Below are positions 43,860-62,925 of a DNA stretch of 64,000 nucleotides, one piece after another; position 1 is the stretch's first letter, and each line of letters opens with the position of its first letter. The stretch is from the NCBI GenBank assembly GCA_002189035.1, contig CM007992.1, forward strand, positions 1,426,001-1,490,000, read 5' to 3'. The notes beneath the pieces were generated by a model. That model searched no databases. It saw nothing but the letters and a program-made list of their open reading frames with translations, and was not told where the DNA came from. This DNA comes from Utricularia gibba (lineage: Eukaryota > Streptophyta > Magnoliopsida > Lamiales > Lentibulariaceae). A program made the position numbers and the translations under genes.

Positions 43860-44947
43860 CTCGGAGTCACGACGAGGGAGATGATGACGCTGTTTGGTCG
43901 AAGATTCAATCCCCCGTTGAAAAGGGATAAGATATCAGGATAGGAAGATGAATCTTGTGAATTGCCTGTTTTATCCCGAAAGTCCTAACCTCGGGTCGGG
44001 TTGATCCATGAGTGCAATGGGTACCTGTCTAACCCGGCTAAACTTATTTGGGCCTACGGCCCATCTTTCCAATTAGAAGGTTACAGTGAAGGCTGATCCA
44101 AACCAAGAGCAATTCAAAATTCCGAGGCCTGCTCTGCTACGAGAATATCAATCATCGTATGGCGCCAGATCGTCCGTCCCTTCTTTCCTTTTGCTTGAAC
44201 TTGAACGAACTCAGTTAAAACCTCCTACACCGAATTCTTTTTTTCCGTTCATCACTTGATTCGTATTTGAGTAGTTGGATTTTGGGTCTTCTTTCTTTCG
44301 GTTTAGCAGGTAAAGTTTTGCACTTTGAATTGAATTCTGTTTTACAGTATTGGAATCTTGATGTAATAGGTTTTGTTTTTGTAGGATATAGAACTGGAGG
44401 TTCACAATTTTGACCCAGGAAGTGATTTTCAGGTTTGTAACTGGAGTAATTTTCGGTGTTCTGCTGCTAATTGGTTTAGGGTTTTGGGGTGATAGTTGCG
44501 TAGTGTATGATCCGTATGTGTGTGCTAATTTTATCTTTCTGTGATTTTATGGCTATTGAACCTGGAGCGTTCTTCGCTTGCTTTCCTAGAGAGATTGCCT
44601 TTCCAAAATGTTTCATTGTCGATTTGTGCACTTATCAAATGACATGTTTTTTAACTGAAACGCGTGCAATTATAAAGCTTTTCTGCGGAATACTGATCTT
44701 GTATTGGTTTTGCCTTGATCTTTGATTGAATCCGTTATTTTCATTTTGTCATCTATTCACTGTCTATATACATATTCATCTGGATTATGTTTCGCTTCTT
44801 TAAGGACAGTAGAAAAGTTGTCTACCTACTTATTCGTTTTCACTTGATCTTTTGTTGAAAATTGATCATTTGTCCCTTATTAAGGGCAATTGAAGTTTCT
44901 TGATTTTTTTTTTTTAACTTTTGAAGTAGGAGAATCAGCTACATCAC
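43860..44947. promoter_or_regulatory. Shared upstream region of GSA (minus) and TAF12 (plus)
   Basis: Just under 1.1 kb between the two start codons. About 44100-44430 looks like transcribed leader of TAF12, with a probable intron starting GTTTGTAACTGG near 44433 and ending at the TAG before 44930. No coding first exon for TAF12 could be identified. Confidence 0.5.
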
Positions 44948-47900
44948 ATGTCTCAGCAGAATCATCCGCAACAGCAATTGGGACAGCAGAATCATCCGCA
45001 ACAGCAAATAGGCATGCAGAATCAGCAACACCAGCAAATGGGACAGCAGAATAATCTGCAACAGCAAATGGGACAGCAGAACAATCTGCAACAGCAAATA
45101 GGACAGCAGAATCAGATGCAGCAACAAATGAGCCAGCAGAATCAATTGCATCATCAAATAGAGCAGCAAGGTCAATTGAATCAGCAGCAACAGAGTCAGA
45201 TGCAGCAGCAAATAGCGCAGCAGAATCAATTACAACAACACTCTGGCCAACCAGGGCAGTTGCAGCAGCCAACGGTGCAGCAGAATCAGCTTCAACAGCA
45301 AATGGGTCAGCCGAATCAACTGCAACAACAATTGGGGCAGCAGAATCAATTGCAGCAACAAATGGCGCAGCAGAATCAGTTGCAACAACAACAAATTTCT
45401 CAGCCAAATCAATTGCAACAACAGCAAATAGTCCATACGAATCAATTGCAACAGCAACATATGGGCCAGCAGAATCAGTTGCAGCAGCCACAAATTGGGC
45501 AAATTCCAGGTGGGAACATGTCACGATCTGTGCTGATGGGGCAAACTGGTCACTTGCCTATGTTGTCTGGTCAAGTAGCTGCGGCAGCTGCAGCTGCCCA
45601 GATGAACTTGCCAAATCAGTTTCTGTCATCGGTATGCAATCTTCTTATTTTTTCATCGTTTTATTGCCAAAATAAAGCAGTGAAACCATTCCAACCTGTA
45701 TTTTTACAGTTTTTTAATATCTGGCTTTGTATAATGTTGTAAGCCTTAGAGGAAGGCTACTGAATCAGTATTATCACTGTATGAATTTCTTTCTAGTTTG
45801 ATTCTGATTAACTCAGTGTGCCAACTTAATCTTGACTTTTTTGCAAGTGACTTTTTTTACAATGCAGAAGATTTACTTAGGAAAAATTTACATTGGACGC
45901 TCTAAAAGTAGCTTTGGGTTTGATATTTGGATAATTTGGATGCTAGGAAAATGGGTTTTTTGTGCGAGTTCGTATTTATTGTGATAGCTTTATGTTTGCA
46001 CAACACCTTTTGGCTTATTGAGTAATAAATCATCGACATTGCAGCCTCGACAGAAGGCAGGATTTATGCAAGGGACTCAGTTCCACCCTGGAAACTCTCC
46101 TGGACAGTCATTGCCTGGAATGCCTACAGTAGGAATGATGGGGTCTGTGAATCTGAATTCTCAACTCAGAACAAGTGGTGCTCTTGCCTACGCCCAGCAG
46201 AGGATGACCCCTGGCCAGATCAGGCAAAATGCATTAACTGCTAATCAGGTGTGTGTTTATTTGTTCGTATTTCTCCATTATGTGTAGAGCTTATCTGTTT
46301 GCAGCTTCTTATTAAATATAGGATCGATGCAATAATGTCCCAAATTTGTGTTAAATTTTCCTTTCATGTTATGCAGTAGTTTAAGATCTCCCTTCCTTGA
46401 GTTATTCACCCTTTTTCATGATGATCATCTTCTCTTGTGGGACTATGCCATTTCCAAGTTGCATCATGAGGTCATAAAGTCTTCACTTGATCGTAGTCAA
46501 GATTGCATAATTCATTGTATTATGCTTTCAGATGGCGTGATGTTATCTGAATGATTTTTTTAAGACTCCGAGATACCTAGGGTCACCAATCCGTGTTTGT
46601 ATTTCTGATCAACAGTTATTGGTGCTCAACTGTGCTTCTTGTGAAACATGCTTTCAGTTGTCTTTCTTCAAGTGACGATTCTGTGGATTTAACAGATCCT
46701 CTTGAATCTTTTTTCTTTTTTATCTAAAACGGCGCTGCTTCTCTTATGGAAGCATATTAAACCTTAAAACCTAATGGAGAACGTCTTACCTCTGTATAGT
46801 GTTGTTCAATATACGGTTAATTTCACTAGGAAATAGATTAAGTCCCAGTTGCAGCGTCTATTGTTATTTTGCTCTTCATGTATTCCCCAGTAAATAATTT
46901 TGAGATGATAATTTTGCTTTAGACTAAAATGGATATATTTTATTTTGCTCTCGTTGGCTTCATTGCATGTGAACTAAAACTAAATTTGCAGGCACAAAAT
47001 ATGACAGATTTTTCTTATGAATGCTCAGCTTTCAGGGCTTGCTCAGAACGGGAAATCTGGTGTCATGCATAATGCTTTAGCTCAGCAGCAATGGCTTAAA
47101 CAAATGGCATCCATGTCATCCCCCAATTCTTCATTTCGTATTCCAAATCGGCAACAGTTGCTTATGCAGCAGCAAATTGTATCTTCCCAGTTGCATCAGA
47201 ATTCGGTTGCTTTGAATCCACAACAACTGTCTCAGTTAGCACACATGGGCCAGTTAAATCAGCAAAAACAGCAACAACAGCAATCACCAACCCAGCAATT
47301 TTTCCATCAACAGCAGTCTCCTGGAAGTGTTGTAGGTCAGAAATCTGTAAGTTTGACTGGATCACTTCCTGATGCAGCTGCATCTGGAACTACAACGCCA
47401 GGTGGAAGTTCAAGCCAAGGCACAGAAGCCAGCAATCAACTACTTGGGAAGAGAAAGATACAAGATCTTGCATCAGAGGTTTTTCTTTCTTAGTTTGTTT
47501 TTACAGGTCTTTTATTTTGAAGTCATGTTAACAAGATTTTTCAAATTGATATCCATTAAACTCGAATAACAGTTTTTTTAAAAAAAAAAATCGATGTCAT
47601 CCTTTATTTTGTTGGTAGATTTTCATGATTTCTTGACTTATTTTGAATTGAATGCAGTTGGATATAAATGTAAAGGTGGATCCAGATGTTGAAGACATCC
47701 TTCTAGATTTTGCTGATAGCTTTATTGATTCCGTAAGGATTTGTATTTTTTTCTGCAGCAACTAATCTGATTCGCTATGCTACTACAATTACTAAACCTT
47801 CTTTTAGTTGGAAAATGTAGTATCTATATGCCGCTACTAGTTAACTTAAGTTGCTTTCAATTTTTTTCTCCTTTATCATGGTTTGTGTTAGTGAGTATGG

Positions 47901-49819: not shown

Positions 49820-49824
49820 ATATT

Positions 49825-50341
49825 GATGGGATATAAATCGGATGCAGTTAATCTGTCTTTGGAAAGCTGCCAAAAGGTGCTTTGATGGAATAGCGCAGGA
49901 TGACAGATCGATAATTGTCAGAATCTGTCAATAGCGGCTATGTTGCACAATCTGAAAAGTGGCCGAATTACGGAAAAGCAGACGGCGGTTATCTGAAAAG
50001 TAGGACCACAGTACATGCGTAGAAAGCAGCCGACATCTACATAATTCAGGATTCAGCCAGATCGACCTCTCCTATAAGCAAGAGTAATTCTGAAGGTGAA
50101 AGAGTTCGACTCTAAGCTCTCCAATTTGTATTTCTCTCCCCACCTCCATCTAGTGAAGATTTTTCTCCGGTGAGCTCTGATAGCTCTGTGGTTTTTTCGT
50201 CCTCCAGCGGTTTTCATGTAAAAAAAAACTTGTCTTTTCGAGTTCCTTATAGCACACGAACCTAAATCGGGTAGGCCGCGTCCGATCACGCCCATAACCT
50301 GAAAATCGGCCCAACCTTGACATAGATTTTTGCCTTCAACA
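49825..50341 (+). repeat. 5' LTR
   Basis: 517 bp, TG...CA ends, matching 58944-59459 along its length. A probable TATA-like CTATAAGC lies at about 50072 and T/C-rich leader sequence follows. Confidence 0.9.
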
Positions 50342-50409: not shown

Positions 50410-51749
50410 ATGCTCATCATGGCAGAAAACAGCATGACCACCAACTCTGGCAACAAAGGGAGTGTCGGCATACAAGACCCCGGCCTCATGGTTATCAATA
50501 AGGAACAACTCAAAGCCTTTATGACGGAAATCTTCTCCGACCTTAAAGCATCCTCGGGGCTGAACTCTAGTGCACAAGAAGGAACACCCAAAACCGCATG
50601 ACGAGCAAAAAAACAACCCCTAATTCCGGAGTACCTCCTGGACACAGAGACTGAGTTCAAACCGAGGAAGAGATGTTGCGAAGGAAGAGGCGCAACCAAG
50701 TCATTTATGAGCCAGGAACGGATAGGGGAAACATGATTGGCAAAATCTTAGAAAAAAGGAAAGAAGAGCTGAGGAGAGAACTGGACCAGATTTGTGAGAG
50801 GAAAAGACTTATCGGTAGACAAACGCCGCCCAGGGAGAGAGAGAGTAGGGGCTTCAGAGATGCCTTTGACCAGAACGTGTGCACTAGGAGAGGAGATGTT
50901 TTGGCCGATATCAACTTTGCTCTAAGAAGCAGTGTTGAAGGAGTAGTGGCTACCTTGGCATTGCGCTTTGACCCCTTCTCGGATGAATTAATCGGGGAAG
51001 AACCAGAGAGAGGATTCAGGATCCCCAACGGACTACCCACGTATGATGGAAAAGGGGACCTCGTATCCCATGTGACTGGCTTTGACATGAGGATGGCAAT
51101 AGTCCGACATTCTGAAGCCATGAAATGCAAGCTGTTTGCTTGCTCGCTCAAAAAGGGAGCAAAGACGTGGTTCAAGCAGTTAGAACCATGCACTGTTGGA
51201 TCTTATCGGGAGTTGGTGTTGCTCTTCACTACCCGATACACTGTCAAGATTGAGGCTCCACCTTCAAAGGTAGCGCTATATTTTATTTGGTATGACCATC
51301 AAAAAGAGAGCTTGAGAAGATTCATCGACCGATTCAACTACTTAGCACAGGATGTTCAGTTGGATTTGAAGGAGAGGGTGGAAATAATGAAGCGGGCCCT
51401 AAGAATGTCCAAACTGGGGCAGAGTCTGTCTAAGTCCCCACTGAAGAACCTCGGAGAATTTCTAAGGAAGATCATGAAGTACATCCGAGTTGATGATGAC
51501 CTCAAGGCCGAAATGAAGAGCTGCGTAGAAATTTGGCCGATTTCGCAGCAAGAAGTGCAGCCCAACCTGGCCCCCCGGTCGAATAAGCGCCGTGAAGTGT
51601 ATCAGGTGGAACCGACTAGAACGGATACCTATTGTGAGATACACAAGACAACATGGCACGATATTGTCGACTGTCGGATAATGAAAAGGATGATCGAACG
51701 ATATCATGCTAGCGGTGGGGCAAACAGCACGACGCGGAACCCCGCATGA
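50410..51749 (+). pseudogene. gag region of the retrotransposon
   Basis: Two frames (50410-50601 and 50673-51749) separated by a stop and frame change. The second holds the retrotransposon gag domain: GLPTYDGKGDLVSHVTGFDM, CKLFACSLKKGAKTWFKQLE and SLRRFIDRFNYLAQD. Structural protein that would form the virus-like particle; as written it is disrupted and ends without a protease. Confidence 0.8.
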
Positions 51750-51975: not shown

Positions 51976-52600
51976 AGCCAAATGGGCGATCGAGTTAAGA
52001 AAAATGGATATCGAATTCAGATCGAGAACTGCGATCAAAGCCTAGCCTCTAGCCGATTTTGTGGTCGAAATGACCAGGCCTATCGACCGGTTCTTGGAAG
52101 CCAACGACCGATGGGCCATGTATGTCAATGATTCTACATATAACGGGGCTGGAAGTGGAATTGACATCCGAACTCGGGATAGGAAGTACATCCATATCAC
52201 GGTGAAATTCTTATTCCCCGCCTCCAATAACGTCGTTGAGTATGAGGCTTTGATTGAAGGAATGAAAATGGCCAAGGAACTTGGAGTTGCAGAGCTCGAC
52301 GTTTATACCGATTCACAGCTAGTGCAAGGACAATTTTCGGGTGAGTATGAAACCCATGACCCCCTAATGGCTCTGTATCATGTTAAGGTGAAGGAGTTGG
52401 TGAAGACTTTCAAGGAGTTTACCCTATCACATGTGGCATGCGAAGAAAATGGATCTGTGGACAGCCTCGCCCAGTTTGCCACAGGTTTTCTAGAGTTAAA
52501 AGAGGGGAGTGTGATGATCCGATTGCGGGATCAACCTTCATTAATCTTGCGGATAGTGAACCATATTACCCAGCAACCAGGAAATGACATCTCTTCGTAG
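51976..52600 (+). pseudogene. RNase H region of the retrotransposon
   Basis: About 51980-52040 resembles the tail of the standard RT-linked RNase H (RKMDIEFRSRTAIKA, then a stop). From about 52050 an RNase H-like domain follows: LADFVVEMTRP, DRWAMYVNDSTYNGAGSG, SNNVVEYEALIEGMKMAKEL and VYTDSQLVQGQFSGEYETHD. The first acidic residue of the usual YVDGS motif is Asn here (YVNDS), which would remove a catalytic Asp. Without RT it has no obvious use. Confidence 0.75.
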
Positions 52601-53845
52601 CTAAGTCTCCTCGAAGATTGGATGTCGGCTTATATCTAGTATCTGCAAAACGGAGAAACACCATCTGACAAATTGGAAGCCCGAAAGTTGGAGATTAGGG
52701 CAAAGAGTTATACACTAGTAAGCGGAATTCTCTATCGGAGATCCTTCGATGGACCCCTACTGAAGTGTATCACGAAAGAACATTCTCAAGACCTTATTAC
52801 CGATTTGCACGAGGGAAAGTGCGGCAGTCGTGTTGGGATACGATCGCTATGCAGAAAGGCAATGAGAAGCGGGCACTATTGGACAACTATGAAACAAGAT
52901 ATTATTGAAGTGGTGAGGAAATTCAAGATATGCCAATATCATGCGAACACACCGAGAAAACCGGTAAACAAACTGACTACTCTATTGCTCTCGTACCCGT
53001 TTGATCGTTGGGGGCTGGATATCATGGGACCTTTCCCTCAAACCTCCGGCCAAAGGAAGTTTGTTATCGTGGGGATTGAATATTTCTCTATATGGGTAGA
53101 AGTGGAAGCCGTGGCAAAAATATCGGAAGAAACCGTTATCTGGTTTCTGTGAAGGAACATCTTCATCCGGTTCGGGGTACCCCGAGAACTCGCAACCAAT
53201 AATGGAACCCAGTTTGCTGGGGGGAAGATGGACGCATTCCTGGATAAGTATTCCATCAAGCACAACTTCACTTCGGTCTACCATCCTCAGAGCAATGACC
53301 TCACGGAGGTAACAAACCGAACGCCCAGACAAGGTATGAAAACTAAACTTGAGGACTTTGGAGGGTCTTGGGCAAACTGGTTGGATGAGGTGCTATGGTC
53401 ATATTGCACCACCCCTCGAACCACTACAGAAGAATTCCCCTTCTTATTGGTTTACGGATCGGAAGCAGTATGCCCAATTGAATTAAAGCTAAAGAGCTAT
53501 AGGGTGGAACACTATAACGAAGAGGAAAATGCCGATCTACGAAAACTAGAGTTGGAGTTGTTGGAGGAAAAAAGATAGAGTATTTATAGTTGACTAGGGG
53601 CTTATCAAAGAAGAACGGAAAAGAATTACAACAAGTCTGTATCCCCAAGGGAATTTTCGGAAGGAGACTTGGTGCTTCGAAGCATCCACCCACAAAGACA
53701 TGTGGGAAAATTAGACCGCAACTGGGAAGGACCTTATTGGATTTCAAAGGTAATCGGAAAAGAAGCTTATCACCTAGAACAGCTAGATGATGTGGAATTT
53801 CGAAGGTCATGGAATGCATCACATCTGAGGAAATTCTATGCCTAA
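52601..53845 (+). pseudogene. Integrase region of the retrotransposon
   Basis: Zinc-binding region (LHEGKCGSRVG), core (FDRWGLDIMGPFPQ; KFVIVGIEYFSIWVE), a stop at 53150-53152, then FGVPRELATNNGTQF and YHPQSNDLTEVTN. A frame change near 53590 precedes the C-terminal part, which ends with a TAA at 53843-53845. The usual SDNGTQF reads TNNGTQF, so the second catalytic Asp is lost, and a zinc ligand His is Arg (CGSRVG). Inactive by several independent defects. Confidence 0.8.
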
Positions 53846-53954
53846 CCAGCCCAATATCAATCTCTATCACAAATTTTCACAAGTTTTGGTATTTTCTTCA
53901 TCAAAATAGTCAAGCAGCTATATATTCCTCCAAAGCGGAGATGAGTTGACAAAA

Positions 53955-54907: not shown

Positions 54908-57164
54908 TTAAGGTTCAGGAAGAGAATTAGTTGAGGGGCCGACATGTCCCTCCATCCTCGCTCTTAGCTTGGCTTCATTCTCCCACCCAATCCTAGCCCA
55001 AATAAGTGCTATTAGGCGCTCCCGATCCACTTCAAACCCGAATTCCGGGGCTTGGAACACATCCGTGATAACGTCCAACATGTTTTCATCCTTCGTCAGG
55101 GGGTTTATCCTTTCAAAGCGTGGATCCGTGATCGACGACCCGAATTCTCGACTGAACTGGTGCCTTTGCCGGTATAAGAGCAAGCCGATTTAGTCCCCTT
55201 CATAAATATCCGAGAGCTTAGAAGCAGGCTGAGTTAACGAAATCATCCAAAAGCCCCTCCGAGATGCCTCTTGATTCAGTAATTCGGCCTCCAAGGCCGA
55301 AACACGATCCCGAGCGTGCTTCAACTCCGCTTCTGCTTCCTCAAGCATCACTTTGAAACCCTCCTTTTCGGAATTGGCATCATCGATTGCCTTCCCCATT
55401 TCATCGACCACATTCTGAAACTCCTCTTCCCGACGAGAACGCTTCCCGAGAATCATCCTCCGCAAACTCCCTTCCTCATCTAATAATTTCACTATGGCAT
55501 CTTAAACACTATATGGGCTTGAAGCCGGGTAACCTCCTCCGAGTGTGACCCCATCTACTTGGCCATCCCCCATCCGAAAGTCAAAGCCTAGAAAAAAAAT
55601 CACTCAGTTAGAAACCGGCTTACACAATTACGAGAAGGAATAAGATGAATACCTGCCAGATTCCCTTAAGCATAACTTCCGGTTGAAAGTCCAGAGGACT
55701 TGGCACAGCTTCGTCCAGTAGTCTCCTTAATTCGACTGGAAACGAAGATAGAGGGAACGCCGGATTGCCCCGTGTCTCAATTAGAGCATAATCACTCCAT
55801 ATCTCATTCGAAGGGCCGACGTTGAGGCATCAACCGAATTGAACTCCATACCGAGAACTGGGGGTTCAACGATCATCGGAGAAGGGAAGAGCTTCCCTTT
55901 GCCCTTTCTGGTTGAGGAAGGAGGGGGAGTCGGTTCCTGGCTCCCAGACACCTCAATCACTTGATCCCCATCCGAGGAGTGATTGGCGGCATCCGATTGA
56001 ACTTCAAGAGAATCAGCCTAGAAGGAAAGATAAAGTCGGAATTAGAGACTCATAATGACGGATCGCAAAAACCAAATAGACCTGTACAGAGGGGGCTACA
56101 TCGGATTCTTGCATCCGACGCATCTCAGCAGAGAAGCGCGCCATCACTGAATCCTCCAAAGCATTTCTTCATGCCATCTCTTCAACTGCATACGAAAATT
56201 GGGAAAGCAGTGAAACACGATAAATATATTGCAATTCAAGGAGGCAGAACCCGGCTACGTCTATGCTTCTTAGAAGGTTTATGTGCGCAAACCTTAACCC
56301 TTTTTCTTTTCTTTCGAGCTGAGGGCCAAGTGGAGGACTCAGGAACCAGAATAGAGGGGAGAGGGGTTATCGGTTCAGAAGCAGGAGGTGCTGCCGAATC
56401 AGAGGGAGCATTGTGTGGAGATTTTAAGAGATGACGATACTCTAACTCAGAGCCTAGACGAATAATGAAATTAGGCCACTGTCCATCCCGGTTGCGACCA
56501 AGAATCCCACAGGCCGATAAGGAATCTTGTGAAAGCATCAAGGCCCGAGACTCGAATCTAACAGAACATCCACCCAATCTATGATATACCTCCCTACGGG
56601 GCTCGTTAGAGGGACGAAAATGACCGAAAAGTTTTATCTTGAAAGGAGTGGGGGGTTTAATCAAAAAATTCCACCTAGCCCCCAGCGGGGAGCAACCCAG
56701 ATGAAGGAAGACCACCAGTTGTGATGAGTATTGGGAGCTTTTAAAATGAAATTGGGATGGTCTTCAAACCGGTGAAATTGGAAGTGGGAGAAACCGTGCA
56801 TCGGACATTTTGCTTTGCGGACTGCAACTTTGAAGAGTTGGAAAAAATCTACTAGCATCATATTCGGATCCATGCCGACCGAATAGAAGAGAAATGTGGT
56901 GAAATAGAAGATTGAATTTGGGGCGAGGCAATGGAACGGGATGAAAAACATGTTGAGAAATTGAACAAGTAAAGGGTGGAGCGGAAATCGTAGGCCACTT
57001 TCTAAGTAGGTAATGGGGATGGGAAGGCCGAAACGGGGAAGAGGCCTTTCCTCGGATCCCCAAGGAATCTGGCCATCCCTAGCCTGGGAAATAATGTATC
57101 CCTCCGGGATCGAGTATTTGGACCGAATAGCGGAGATATTCAACTCACTAGATTTCCTACCCAT
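54908..57164 (-). pseudogene. Antisense ORF of the retrotransposon (putative gypsy-type transposon domain)
   Basis: On the strand opposite to gag/integrase. It begins MGRKSSELNISAIRSKYSI at 57164 and contains the PF04195-like block YLESGLRFPLHPLLVQFLNM, then, after a frame change near 56700, FLIKPPTPFKIKLFGHF, a basic nuclear-type stretch ARKKRKRVKVCAHKPSKKHR, a coiled-coil-like segment (about 55490-55190, EAEAELKHARDRVSALEAEL) and a final frame ending at 54908. Such antisense ORFs occur in Tat-type elements, role unknown. Several stops or unrecognised introns separate the parts. Confidence 0.65.
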
Positions 57165-57231
57165 CTCGCTCTCGGGAGTCGTAAAAGGAAGGAGTTTTGA
57201 AGGGCGTGAAGGAAAAGAGTGGAAACCCTAA

Positions 57232-58535
57232 GGGAGTGTTTGGTTACAGGGTTATGATAGAATATGTTTAACTTACTTGGGTTTATATAAAGGTGATATG
57301 GATTTATGTAGTGTTTAGTTAGTAGGATTAGAATTGTGTTTTATACCATGTTTAGTTGATAGGATTGGGAAATAATGGAATTGTAATATGTTAATTTACC
57401 ATTTTAACCTTCCAATTAGGGTTTATATTTTGGGAACCAAAAATATTCTCATGTTGTCTTGCAACCATGCGGCCAAAGAAGGAGGACCTGTGCGGCCAAT
57501 GACGAGGTGTGTCCTCTTAACTTCAATTCTAATATTTTTCTTCTCTAACACTTGTTTATTGCATTTATTTTAGGGAGTGTGAAGTGAAGAAAATGAAACG
57601 AGGATGGATTCCAGAAGAAGAACGCGTGCTTCTTAATGGCTAATTGACACTAGTAGCTAACGGATGGAGAAGCAAGAATGGGTTTAAGCCTGGATTTCAT
57701 GGTGCTTTGGAATCATTTATTAGACAACATCTTCCAACTACTAGTTTGAAGGCGAACCCTCATATTGAGTCTAGGTAAAAACTTGGAAACGAGAATATTA
57801 CAAATTGGTAGATCTGTTATCACGTTCTGGAACAGGCTTTAATTCCACTACTAAGATGGTTGAAGGAACTAATGAATTTTGGTTGGAATTGCAAAAGGTT
57901 TGTGACAACATATTTCTCATAAATTTATTTTTGATTTCTAGAAAAATTTAATTGTTTTTGTATGTGTTCAGCATTCACCTCAAACTTACAAGGCCATACG
58001 GTTCAAAATATTTCCACTCTATGAAGAATGGGTTGAAATTTTTGGAAGTGATCGTGCGACTGGTGAGGGAGCAATACCCATCGATGATGAATCAATAAAT
58101 GACATCGAAGGTGCAACTACAGGGCTAGAGGAAGACTCACGAAATGAAAATGGTGTTTATTCTAATCTGAAAAGCCAACACTCTAATGATGAGTCAAGTT
58201 CGTTTTTTGAGGATGTATCTGCATGTAGCAAACAAGAAAGGCCAAACAAGAGAGGAAAACGAAAAAGAATAGCATATGATGACCAAGATTTTACTACGGA
58301 GCTTCGAGAGATGACTCAAGAAACCAATGCTATGTAGCTGCAAATATCATCTAAGCTAACTACTGAAAGTGATTTCCAACGTCAAGCAGCTATAATGATA
58401 CGAAGCATGCCTCTTCATATGTCTCCAATTGAGTTTATGAATATTTTAGAGGTTATAATTAATAACCCTGAAAAGCTGCAAAGTTTTCTAGCAATGACAG
58501 ATTCTGAAAAATTTAGGAAGAAGAAAGATTCAAAG
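57232..58535 (+). mobile_element. PIF/Harbinger-like fragment nested in the retrotransposon
   Basis: Left end GGGAGTGTTTGGTTACAGGG follows a TAA (57229-57231), typical of Harbinger termini and target sites. Inside, plus-strand pieces match the Myb/SANT-like Harbinger protein: RGWIPEEERVLLNG, GFKPGFHGALESFIRQHLP, LKANPHIESR, and a later part (FKIFPLYEEWVEIFGSDRATG to the end near 58540) with at least one internal stop (58336). No transposase and no clear right terminus, so it is truncated or decayed. Confidence 0.65.
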
Positions 58536-58715
58536 ACCTAGTGGAGCGCTAAACCAATCTAGGAATGCGAAAAAAGATATGGGGAAGGTGCGGATACCTG
58601 AAAAATTTGCAGTTTCCAGTGGGTAACACGGCAGCGAACACGGCGGAGTACAAAGAGCGCGGAAATCTCACGGGAGATAGAGAATGCAAAGGGGAGGAAT
58701 GACGGGAGAAGCGTG

Positions 58716-58723
58716 TATTTATA
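58716..58723 (-). promoter_or_regulatory. TATA box for the antisense ORF
   Basis: TATAAATA on the minus strand (within CCTATAAATACACGC). Without the Harbinger-like insert it would lie about 250 bp upstream of the antisense start codon, a normal promoter distance. Inference from position only. Confidence 0.5.
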
Positions 58724-58943
58724 GGAGACGTATTTGGAAGATGAAACGATGCATCGTTTGAGGTACCCAAAATGAGCAGGAAAAAACGTGGAGCGCCCAA
58801 GAGACGACGTGTGGCGCAAAAGTCGATGTAAGTCGGGATGAGATTTGCTCATGAGAATCGGCACTCCCGATAGTGATATAGTAGTGATACTGATTCACCG
58901 ATTTATCCCGAGAGGCCAATATCAGTAAATCAGAGGGGTTGAA

Positions 58944-59459
58944 TGATGGGGTACAAATTGGATGCAGTTAATCGGTCCTTGAAAAGCTGTCAAAAGGTGC
59001 TTTGATGGGATAGCGCAGGACGACAGACTGATAATTGTCAAAATCTGTCAGCAGCGGCCGTGTTGCACAGTCTGAAAAGTGGCTGAATTACGGAAAAGTA
59101 GGTGGCGGTTATCTGAAAAGTAGGACCACAGTACAGGCACAGAAAACAACCGACATCTACAAAATTCAGGATTCGGCCAGATCGACCTTTGCTATAAGTA
59201 GAAGGAATTTTGAAGGTGAAAGGGTTCGACTCTAAGCTCTCCAATTTGTATTTCTCTCCCCACTTCCATTTAGTGAATTTTTTCTCCAATGAGCTCAAAC
59301 ATCTCCGTGGTTTTTCCATCCTTCGACAGTTTTCACGTAAAAAAACTTGTCTTTTTCGAGTTCCTTATAGCACACAAACCTAAATTGGGTAAGCCATGTC
59401 CGGCCACTCCCATAACCCGAAAATCGGCCCAACCTTGACACCGATTTTTGCCCTCAACA
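58944..59459 (+). repeat. 3' LTR
   Basis: 516 bp, TGATGGGG...CAACA, aligned throughout with the 5' LTR. A GA-rich tract (CAGAGGGGTTGAA) just before it could be the polypurine primer. Confidence 0.9.
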
Positions 59460-60781: not shown

Positions 60782-62925
60782 ATGACGGGAGAAAAAGTGG
60801 CGACTGCTTCAGTTGCCGTGGCTACGGGAAGCGAAGTCCCGGAGGGTGAGGTTCCTCTGCTGAACGACGTCGTACAGGGCTCCGTTGACTTCAAAGGCCG
60901 GCCGTCTTTGCGATCCAAGTCCGGGAGTTGGAAATCGGCGTCATTCATCACTTGTGGGAGCAGTGCATGCCTTGTGTTTGTTGTGGATCTGTTCTGATTC
61001 CGGTGTCTGTGTCTGTTGTTTCGTTGAAATTCGAAAGAGACGATGGTTTTTTTTGGGTGCAGGTGCGGGTGTGGCGGAGAGATTTGCGTATTATGGAATA
61101 AGTTTGAATTTGGTGAGTTATTTAACTCATAATTTGGGACAGCCCACCGCCTCCGCCGCCGCTAACTTGAATGCCTGGTATGGGACGTCGTCGCTTTTGC
61201 CGATTGTCGGTGCCTTTGTCGCTGATAGCTTCGCCGGCCGGTTTCGGACGATTATCATCTCCTCCGTCCTCTACATCTTGGTAACTTCCCCCCCTTTTTT
61301 GGATTGAGTTTAAATCTCAGTTTTTACTCTCAGTAAATCCATCGGAGAATATGTTTACGAGTTTCTTCAATATTACCTCCTATCTGGGTCTGTGTTTTCT
61401 ATCTTGTTCCCTTATTTTTGGCTTGGCAATTCAAGGGAGTGAATCCAAAAGGCGGATAATGAAGGTTTGGGATGTTTTTCCTGAGTGTTTTCGTGTTGTG
61501 AATTACAGGGACTCTGTTTCTTGGCTCTCTCAAGTAAACTCACCTCAATCGACATGTCTCATTGCATTCGCAGCAAACATACTCCCTGTTCTCCGAATAA
61601 GTTTCAGATCAATTTCTTCTTCTTCTCACTGTACCTGGTGTCATTAGCTCAAGGAGGACTCATTCCCTGCATTGAAGCTTTTGGCGCTGATCAGTTTGAT
61701 GAAGATGTTGAAAAGGAATCGAAGGCCAAAAGTTCATTCTTCAACTGGTGGTATTGCCTGAGTGTTGGAGGCATCCTCGTGCCTCTACTATGCTTGACTT
61801 ACATTCAAGAGAATGTGAGCTGGGAGCTCGGATTCGGCATCCCTGCTTTCGTCATGTTCCTGGCTCTCATTGTCTTCTTGATCGGAACTTTAACTTATCG
61901 GTTCCGAGTCAATTCCGATCATCGGAACCCATTGGCCAGGATCTTCCATGTTCTCGTCCGAACGGTGAGAAATCGGCTTGCTCCCAGTGTCACCCCTTCC
62001 CCTGAACTAGAAGGCCATCATCATCCCTCTTCCCCTAGAGCTTCCTCTCATACCATGTAAGCAGAGTGACTTCACTTCTCTAAGTTTGCAACAAGCTTCT
62101 GAAAACTGCTGTTTTTCGATAGGTTTCTGGACAAAGCATTAGCTGCTTCAGACGAGGAGAGAATTAGCACTGTCGATGTGGAAGATGCCAAGGGGCTTCT
62201 GCGTCTAGTCCCGATCTGGTTCTCTTGTTTAGGCTACTCGATTGTGTATGCGCAGCCCTCAACTCTGTTCACAAAGCAAGCAGCCACACTCGACCGTCAC
62301 TTAACCTCCACATTCGAAATCCCTGCTGCTTCCCTTCAACAATGCTTCATCACCGCCGTGATCATGATCGGCCTCCCTCTCTATGACCGTCTTTTCGTCC
62401 CCTTTGCTCGGTCCATCACTCAAAGACCCCCGGCATCACCGTTCTACATCGGATCACATTCGGGTTATTCCTCTCCCTCATCTCCATCGTCTTCGCAGCT
62501 GTCGTCGAAGCCAAACGCCTCGCGATTGCGGCGGAGTACGGTCTGGATAATGACCCGACAGCATTGATTCCTATGAGCGTTTGGTGGCTGGCTCCACAGT
62601 ATGTCTTATCTGCCATGGCGGACATTTTCGCTATGGTTGGTTTACAGGAGTTCTTCTACGATCAAGTTCCCAATGATCTCAAAAGCATCGGACTGTCGAT
62701 GTACCTCAGTATTCTCGGGATCGGCAGCCTGTTGAGCAGTCTTCTCGTGTCCACGATTCAGCAGGCCACAAGCGGCGGCGCAGCGGCGGGTGGTTCTCCG
62801 ACAACCTGAACCGCGCGCATCTTGACTACTTCTACTGGGTGCTTGCCGTAATCGGCGCCGTCGGATTGGGCATCTTCCTTTGTTCCACCAGGTCTTACGT
62901 TCTTCGGACAAGTAGCAGCTTCTGA
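60782..62925 (+). CDS. NRT1/PTR family (NPF5-type) transporter, with two frame breaks in the last exon
   Basis: Four exons: 60782-60953, 61063-61280, 61509-62056 and 62123-62925, about 580 aa if two breaks are ignored. The N-terminus [20 protein letters not shown] and [68 protein letters not shown] and [20 protein letters not shown] are NPF hallmarks, with about 12 membrane helices expected. The family moves nitrate, peptides or hormones with protons; the substrate cannot be told. Breaks: at 62427-62431 (five Cs where six would keep frame) and near 62778 (GGC(C)GC), each one base short. The frames on both sides are well conserved. The exon 1 donor is inferred. Confidence 0.85.

Follow-up and report, generated by a model that had tools for sequence, protein, structure and literature searches.

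The minus-strand reading frames that lie between pol and the 3' LTR of a retrotransposon in the window (the whole stretch of 64,000 nucleotides analysed here) are very probably the remains of a decayed accessory gene of a Tat/Retand-type Ty3/Gypsy element, predicted to have been spliced and TATA-driven and to encode a product that is likely nuclear and oligomerising. Antisense genes are widespread in plant LTR retrotransposons, and genes at this place are already known in Retand, Grande and RIRE2 elements, whose antisense ORFs have been reviewed (PMC7264820); the window gene is a new, dead member of this set. In the Retand lineage, ORFs with a TRP28 domain occur in 97% of recently active clusters, always in antisense, with unknown function and a predicted DNA-binding capacity, and they resemble the window gene in their position between pol and the 3' LTR, their orientation and their domain (Vicient 2025, PMC11963269).

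The element that carries the gene is of Ty3/Gypsy type, with a pair of LTRs, a bordering target site duplication (AATAT) and gag and pol on the sense strand (Table 1). Between gag and RNase H there are only about 310 bp, and the protease and the reverse transcriptase (RT) are therefore missing from this copy, which is dead: besides this loss it has a frame change in exon 1 of the antisense gene, stops in exon 4 and an insert in the leader. From the end of pol to the 3' LTR there are about 5.1 kb, nested insert included, within which the antisense PF04195-like domain is found. Tandem-repeat arrays are common in Retand elements; none was found between pol and the antisense gene, where there is a single 78-nt pair of 74% identity. 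The divergence between the two LTRs (K2P 0.157) would place the insertion of the element, very roughly, at 6–12 My, with assumed, commonly used rates of 1.3e-8 to 6.5e-9 per site per year. An additional RNase H domain of the aRNH type is a trait of Tat elements (PMC5348765); the window copy has an RVT_3 (PF13456) domain and has lost the upstream part of pol, in which a "dual" RNase H arrangement would show. The window copy, which has no RT by which a phylogeny would place it in Retand, is likened to this lineage by its layout and its antisense TRP28 domain. Outside the element, a 30-nt repeat array at 44900–45460, glutamine- and asparagine-rich in a plus-strand frame (QQNQLQQQ...), is probably part of a host gene, and plus-strand ORFs at 60885–62567 likely belong to a transporter gene of the POT/NPF family (PF00854, E=3.7e-11, with a 59-residue query one residue off the ORF).

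Table 1. Features of the retrotransposon and of its antisense gene, in window coordinates.
Feature	Position	Strand	Remarks
5' LTR	49824..50341	+	87% identity to 3' LTR
gag ORF	50673..51749	+	PF03732, E=1.2e-7
pol remnants, RNase H (RVT_3 type) and integrase	52061..53850	+	PF13456, E=1.7e-16; PF17921, E=1.6e-5
Coding exon 4	54908..55587	-	predicted coiled coil and conserved C-terminal region, ends with TAA; pN/pS 0.31
Intron 3 (predicted)	55588..55652	-	65 nt, GT-AG, phase 0; splice-site columns 91-100% conserved
Coding exon 3 (linker)	55653..56017	-	pN/pS 0.51, against 0.57-1.05 in other registers
Intron 2 (predicted)	56018..56081	-	64 nt, GT-AG, phase 0; splice-site columns 86-100% conserved
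Coding exon 2	56082..56185	-	pN/pS 0.27 in gene frame
Intron 1 (predicted)	56186..56258	-	73 nt, GT-AG, phase 1; conservation 95-100% in splice-site columns, 70% in the interior
Coding exon 1	56259..57164	-	begins MGRKSSELNI; TRP28/PF04195 domain 57011-56826, basic stretch 56316-56260
PIF/Harbinger-like DNA transposon remnant (presumed class)	~57233..58514	.	GGGAGTGTTTGGTTAC end; in 5' leader, outside gene
TATA box, putative antisense core promoter, CCTATAAATA	58716..58725	-
Decayed E2F-type box (presumed), TTTCCTGC in window	58776..58783	-	60 bp upstream of TATA
3' LTR	58944..59459	+

The gene runs opposite to gag-pol, from an ATG at 57164 to a TAA stop at 54910–54908. Searched at the DNA level, the same genome yielded about 39 relatives of exon 1 (69–83% identity, window copy excluded), to which 20 further PF04195 loci were added; 35 copies with a homologous start were aligned to the window over exon 1, and 22 sequences entered the comparison of pN/pS over the whole gene. 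Codon positions 1, 2 and 3 differ at 0.17–0.23, 0.09–0.17 and 0.44–0.49, respectively, in the first 600 nt of the exon 1 alignment, and the gene frame has pN/pS values of 0.25, 0.27, 0.51 and 0.31 for exons 1 to 4, while four of the five other registers give 1.20–1.67 in exon 1 and 0.94–1.67 when exons 1 and 4 are taken together. Stop codons are rarest in the gene frame both in exon 1 (26 of 5190 codons, against 128–366 in the other registers) and in exon 4 (36 of 4279, against 132–264), and no such frame signal is seen in pN/pS by register inside the introns or beyond the stop codon. A dN/dS (NG86 with Jukes-Cantor correction) of about 0.11 for exon 1 and about 0.08 for the domain core is a rough value, dS being near saturation. 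Being related, the copies are not independent of one another, but the contrast between frames is drawn in the same columns and does not depend on the number of copies. By this comparison, the antisense frame is one that was under strong purifying selection in the past.

Selection on the sense strand, whether for an ORF or for a cis RNA signal there, could also have left a conserved antisense frame as a by-product, and the gag-pol-strand register that shares its third positions with the gene does have a low pN/pS (0.35 in exon 1 and 0.43 in exon 4). That register is, however, always weaker than the gene frame, it contains more stops in exon 1 (197 of 5124 codons), and the splice sites and the TATA box read correctly on the antisense strand only, all of which makes an origin on the sense strand extremely improbable. 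The frame, the splice sites and the TATA box are kept across dozens of copies, which is more than chance would give.

Within the selected stretch, the antisense ORFs look like one gene in four coding exons, because at three conserved GT-AG introns, whose phases match, the codon signal passes from one frame to another. When the phase test was slid along two reference copies, the signal was strong in exon 1, faded over the basic stretch, came back in another frame and ended past the stop codon. The donor GT is conserved in 19/21, 21/22 and 21/22 rows and the acceptor AG in 21/22, 19/22 and 20/22 rows for introns 1 to 3, so that the GT-AG columns are 86–100% identical, against averages of 70–77% for the intron interiors; in one of the reference copies (L046) the phases of the flanking frames agree at all three junctions (1, 0, 0). 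The initial annotation had described an antisense ORF at this place and had proposed purifying selection on its frame as a check: the coordinates of the gene and of CCTATAAATA (58725–58716, minus strand) hold and the selection is found, but the frame of the window copy is not open throughout: there are three predicted introns, which that annotation had not seen, a frame change near 56,700 in exon 1 and in-frame stops in exon 4. A scan for poly(A) signals was uninformative: AATAAA/ATTAAA occurs once in the window copy and is absent from six relatives.

The same segments might instead be several antisense ORFs that are independent of one another, one with the TRP28 domain and another of coiled-coil or "Smc-like" type. 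The published survey of Retand reports 104 antisense ORFs from 63 clusters, some clusters also having antisense ORFs that match models of coiled-coil type (Smc, TolA), and introns are not mentioned in its text, as judged by a word search (PMC11963269); these are separate ORFs in that text, as against four exons of one gene in the window family. Since the frame signal runs up to a conserved GT and resumes past a conserved AG with compatible phases at three of three junctions, and since the coiled-coil segment opens at a conserved acceptor and not at a conserved start codon, independent ORFs seem to us quite improbable. The other alternative, that the antisense unit works mainly as RNA, pairing with the sense genomic RNA, yielding siRNAs and damping the element, with the ORF secondary, has been raised for antisense ORFs generally (PMC7264820), and the whole unit does face the 3' part of the genomic RNA. 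A role as RNA only predicts, however, neither a bias by codon position, nor frame switching at introns, nor the near-absence of stops in the gene frame, and we regard it as unlikely. A single spliced gene is thus the preferred reading, in which the introns would persist because they are antisense and the sense genomic RNA, of the gag-pol strand, cannot splice them out.

The predicted protein begins with the TRP28 exon, for which the initial annotation had proposed a PF04195-like domain. A match to PF04195 (Transposase_28) is found at residues 52–113 from the ATG (E=5.4e-4), but its 20.6 bits are under the Pfam cutoff of 26.2 bits; scores of close relatives range over 15–24 bits, whereas some copies elsewhere in the genome exceed the cutoff. 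The two further parts named at that time, a nuclear-type basic stretch and a coiled coil, are both recovered. The former (RKKRKRVKVCAHKPSKKHR, towards the end of exon 1) resembles a nuclear signal, and the latter is well supported by the AlphaFold model of the last exon of a relative (L063), which has a helix over residues 2–118 with pLDDT mostly of 90–98, followed by a C-terminal part that is conserved and poorly modelled. Against solved structures, a profile search returned nothing but antibody matches at chance level (E 0.37 or worse). The AlphaFold model of the TRP28 exon (40 natural stretches), with a pLDDT of 41, was too poor to serve in fold searches or to lend structural support to DNA binding.

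The 5' leader of the window copy is interrupted by a nested insert, outside the gene, which from its end sequence we take to be a remnant of a PIF/Harbinger-like DNA transposon. Its kin elsewhere in the genome are 86–95% identical (L042–L045 among the close ones) and share its intact left end, GGGAGTGTTTGGTTAC, and its right end is truncated, because these relatives run on with other sequence; the relatives of the retrotransposon have no insert at this leader site. In copies free of the insert the TATA box is 251–298 bp upstream of the ATG, which bears out the earlier suggestion that the distance is promoter-like once the insert is discounted. The box is internal to the element, about 220 bp from the 3' LTR, and TATAAATA, or TATTAATA in one subfamily, is among the most conserved 8-mers from the LTR to the ATG. 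The mean identity of its 8-column window is 0.94, against 0.73 for the region (34 leader sequences), and these eight columns rank beside the ATG context and level with the polypurine-tract region that adjoins the LTR. Between TATA and ATG, a further motif, AGGTA (58595–58599 in the window, minus strand), is nearly invariant (A 32, G 31, G 33, T 33 and A 34 of 34 rows) and could be the splice donor of an intron in the 5' leader; no acceptor of equal conservation was found for it in the leader alignment.

Upstream of the TATA box there is a second conserved element, TTTCCCGC, located exactly 59–60 bp from it in 20 of 34 rows and at –39 in L034. Most other rows, the window among them with TTTCCTGC, are one base off, and a few copies have lost the region. 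Changes from CpG to TpG or CpA are expected of methylated DNA, and several of the one-base changes are of this kind. The sequence TTTSSCGC is, we assume, the consensus of an E2F site, and the TTTCCCGC box is of E2F type in this sense, by its sequence. In Markov-shuffled leaders any TTTSSCGC appears anywhere in 560 nt in about 11% of cases, and TATAAATA in 0.2%. Copies of shared ancestry are weaker proof than boxes of independent origin would be, although in these copies the columns on either side vary freely. A search for E2F-type boxes at 19 other PF04195 loci of the same genome gave a single upstream match, away from TATA, and because these loci have no TATA-linked box, the E2F-type box appears limited to the retrotransposon family of the window copy. 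Other PF04195 loci (L001–L010, L047, L054–L058, L061, L062, L065) did not align with the start region of exon 1 and do not have the TATA/E2F-type arrangement.

Past selection, splice sites with matching phases, and conservation of both the TATA box and the upstream box are established by comparing the copies; transcription, splicing, nuclear location and molecular role we infer. In intact ancestors, RNA polymerase II would have started about 25–30 bp downstream of the internal TATA box, heading away from the 3' LTR, and removal of the three short introns from the antisense transcript would have left an mRNA that encodes a protein of about 680 residues, with the TRP28 domain, the basic stretch, the linker and the long coiled coil in this order. 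The product is likely a nuclear, oligomerising accessory protein that would have served the element in its replication, its integration or its regulation; it may have aided integration, transcription or RNA handling. Action in the nucleus, as the initial annotation had suggested, fits the basic stretch and the precedent of Grande gene23, and control of the sense transcript, its other suggestion, may be an additional effect of the antisense RNA.

In layout, the proposed product is comparable to GENE23 of Grande and to HBZ of HTLV. For gene23 of maize Grande, which is also an antisense accessory gene and lies in a long 3' internal region, an own promoter and a nuclear protein are reported from experiment (Gomez-Orte 2013, cited in PMC7264820 and PMC11963269), whereas promoter and nuclear location of the window gene are predicted from sequence. 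HBZ of HTLV-1 and APH-2 of HTLV-2 are likewise antisense near the 3' LTR, with spliced transcripts as in the model for the window gene, and both proteins are nuclear; their transcripts start, however, in the 3' LTR and not at an internal TATA box (PMC10186651). The likeness to HBZ and APH-2 is one of layout and implies no claim of homology. The four-exon structure and the upstream box were not found in the literature covered, which includes PMC7264820 and PMC11963269.

The exon model offers a full-length protein to clone and test in place of ORF fragments, and it would let annotators merge ORFs that are now counted apart. The antisense orientation explains in a simple way how a gene with introns can be carried by a retrotransposon, and the conserved pair of TTTCCCGC and TATA makes a testable prediction on the timing of gene expression. 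Tentatively, the antisense ORFs that are annotated apart in Retand-type elements may, at least in this retrotransposon family, be parts of a single spliced gene under an internal TATA promoter with an E2F-type box at a fixed place, which would couple the expression of a probably nuclear protein to dividing cells.
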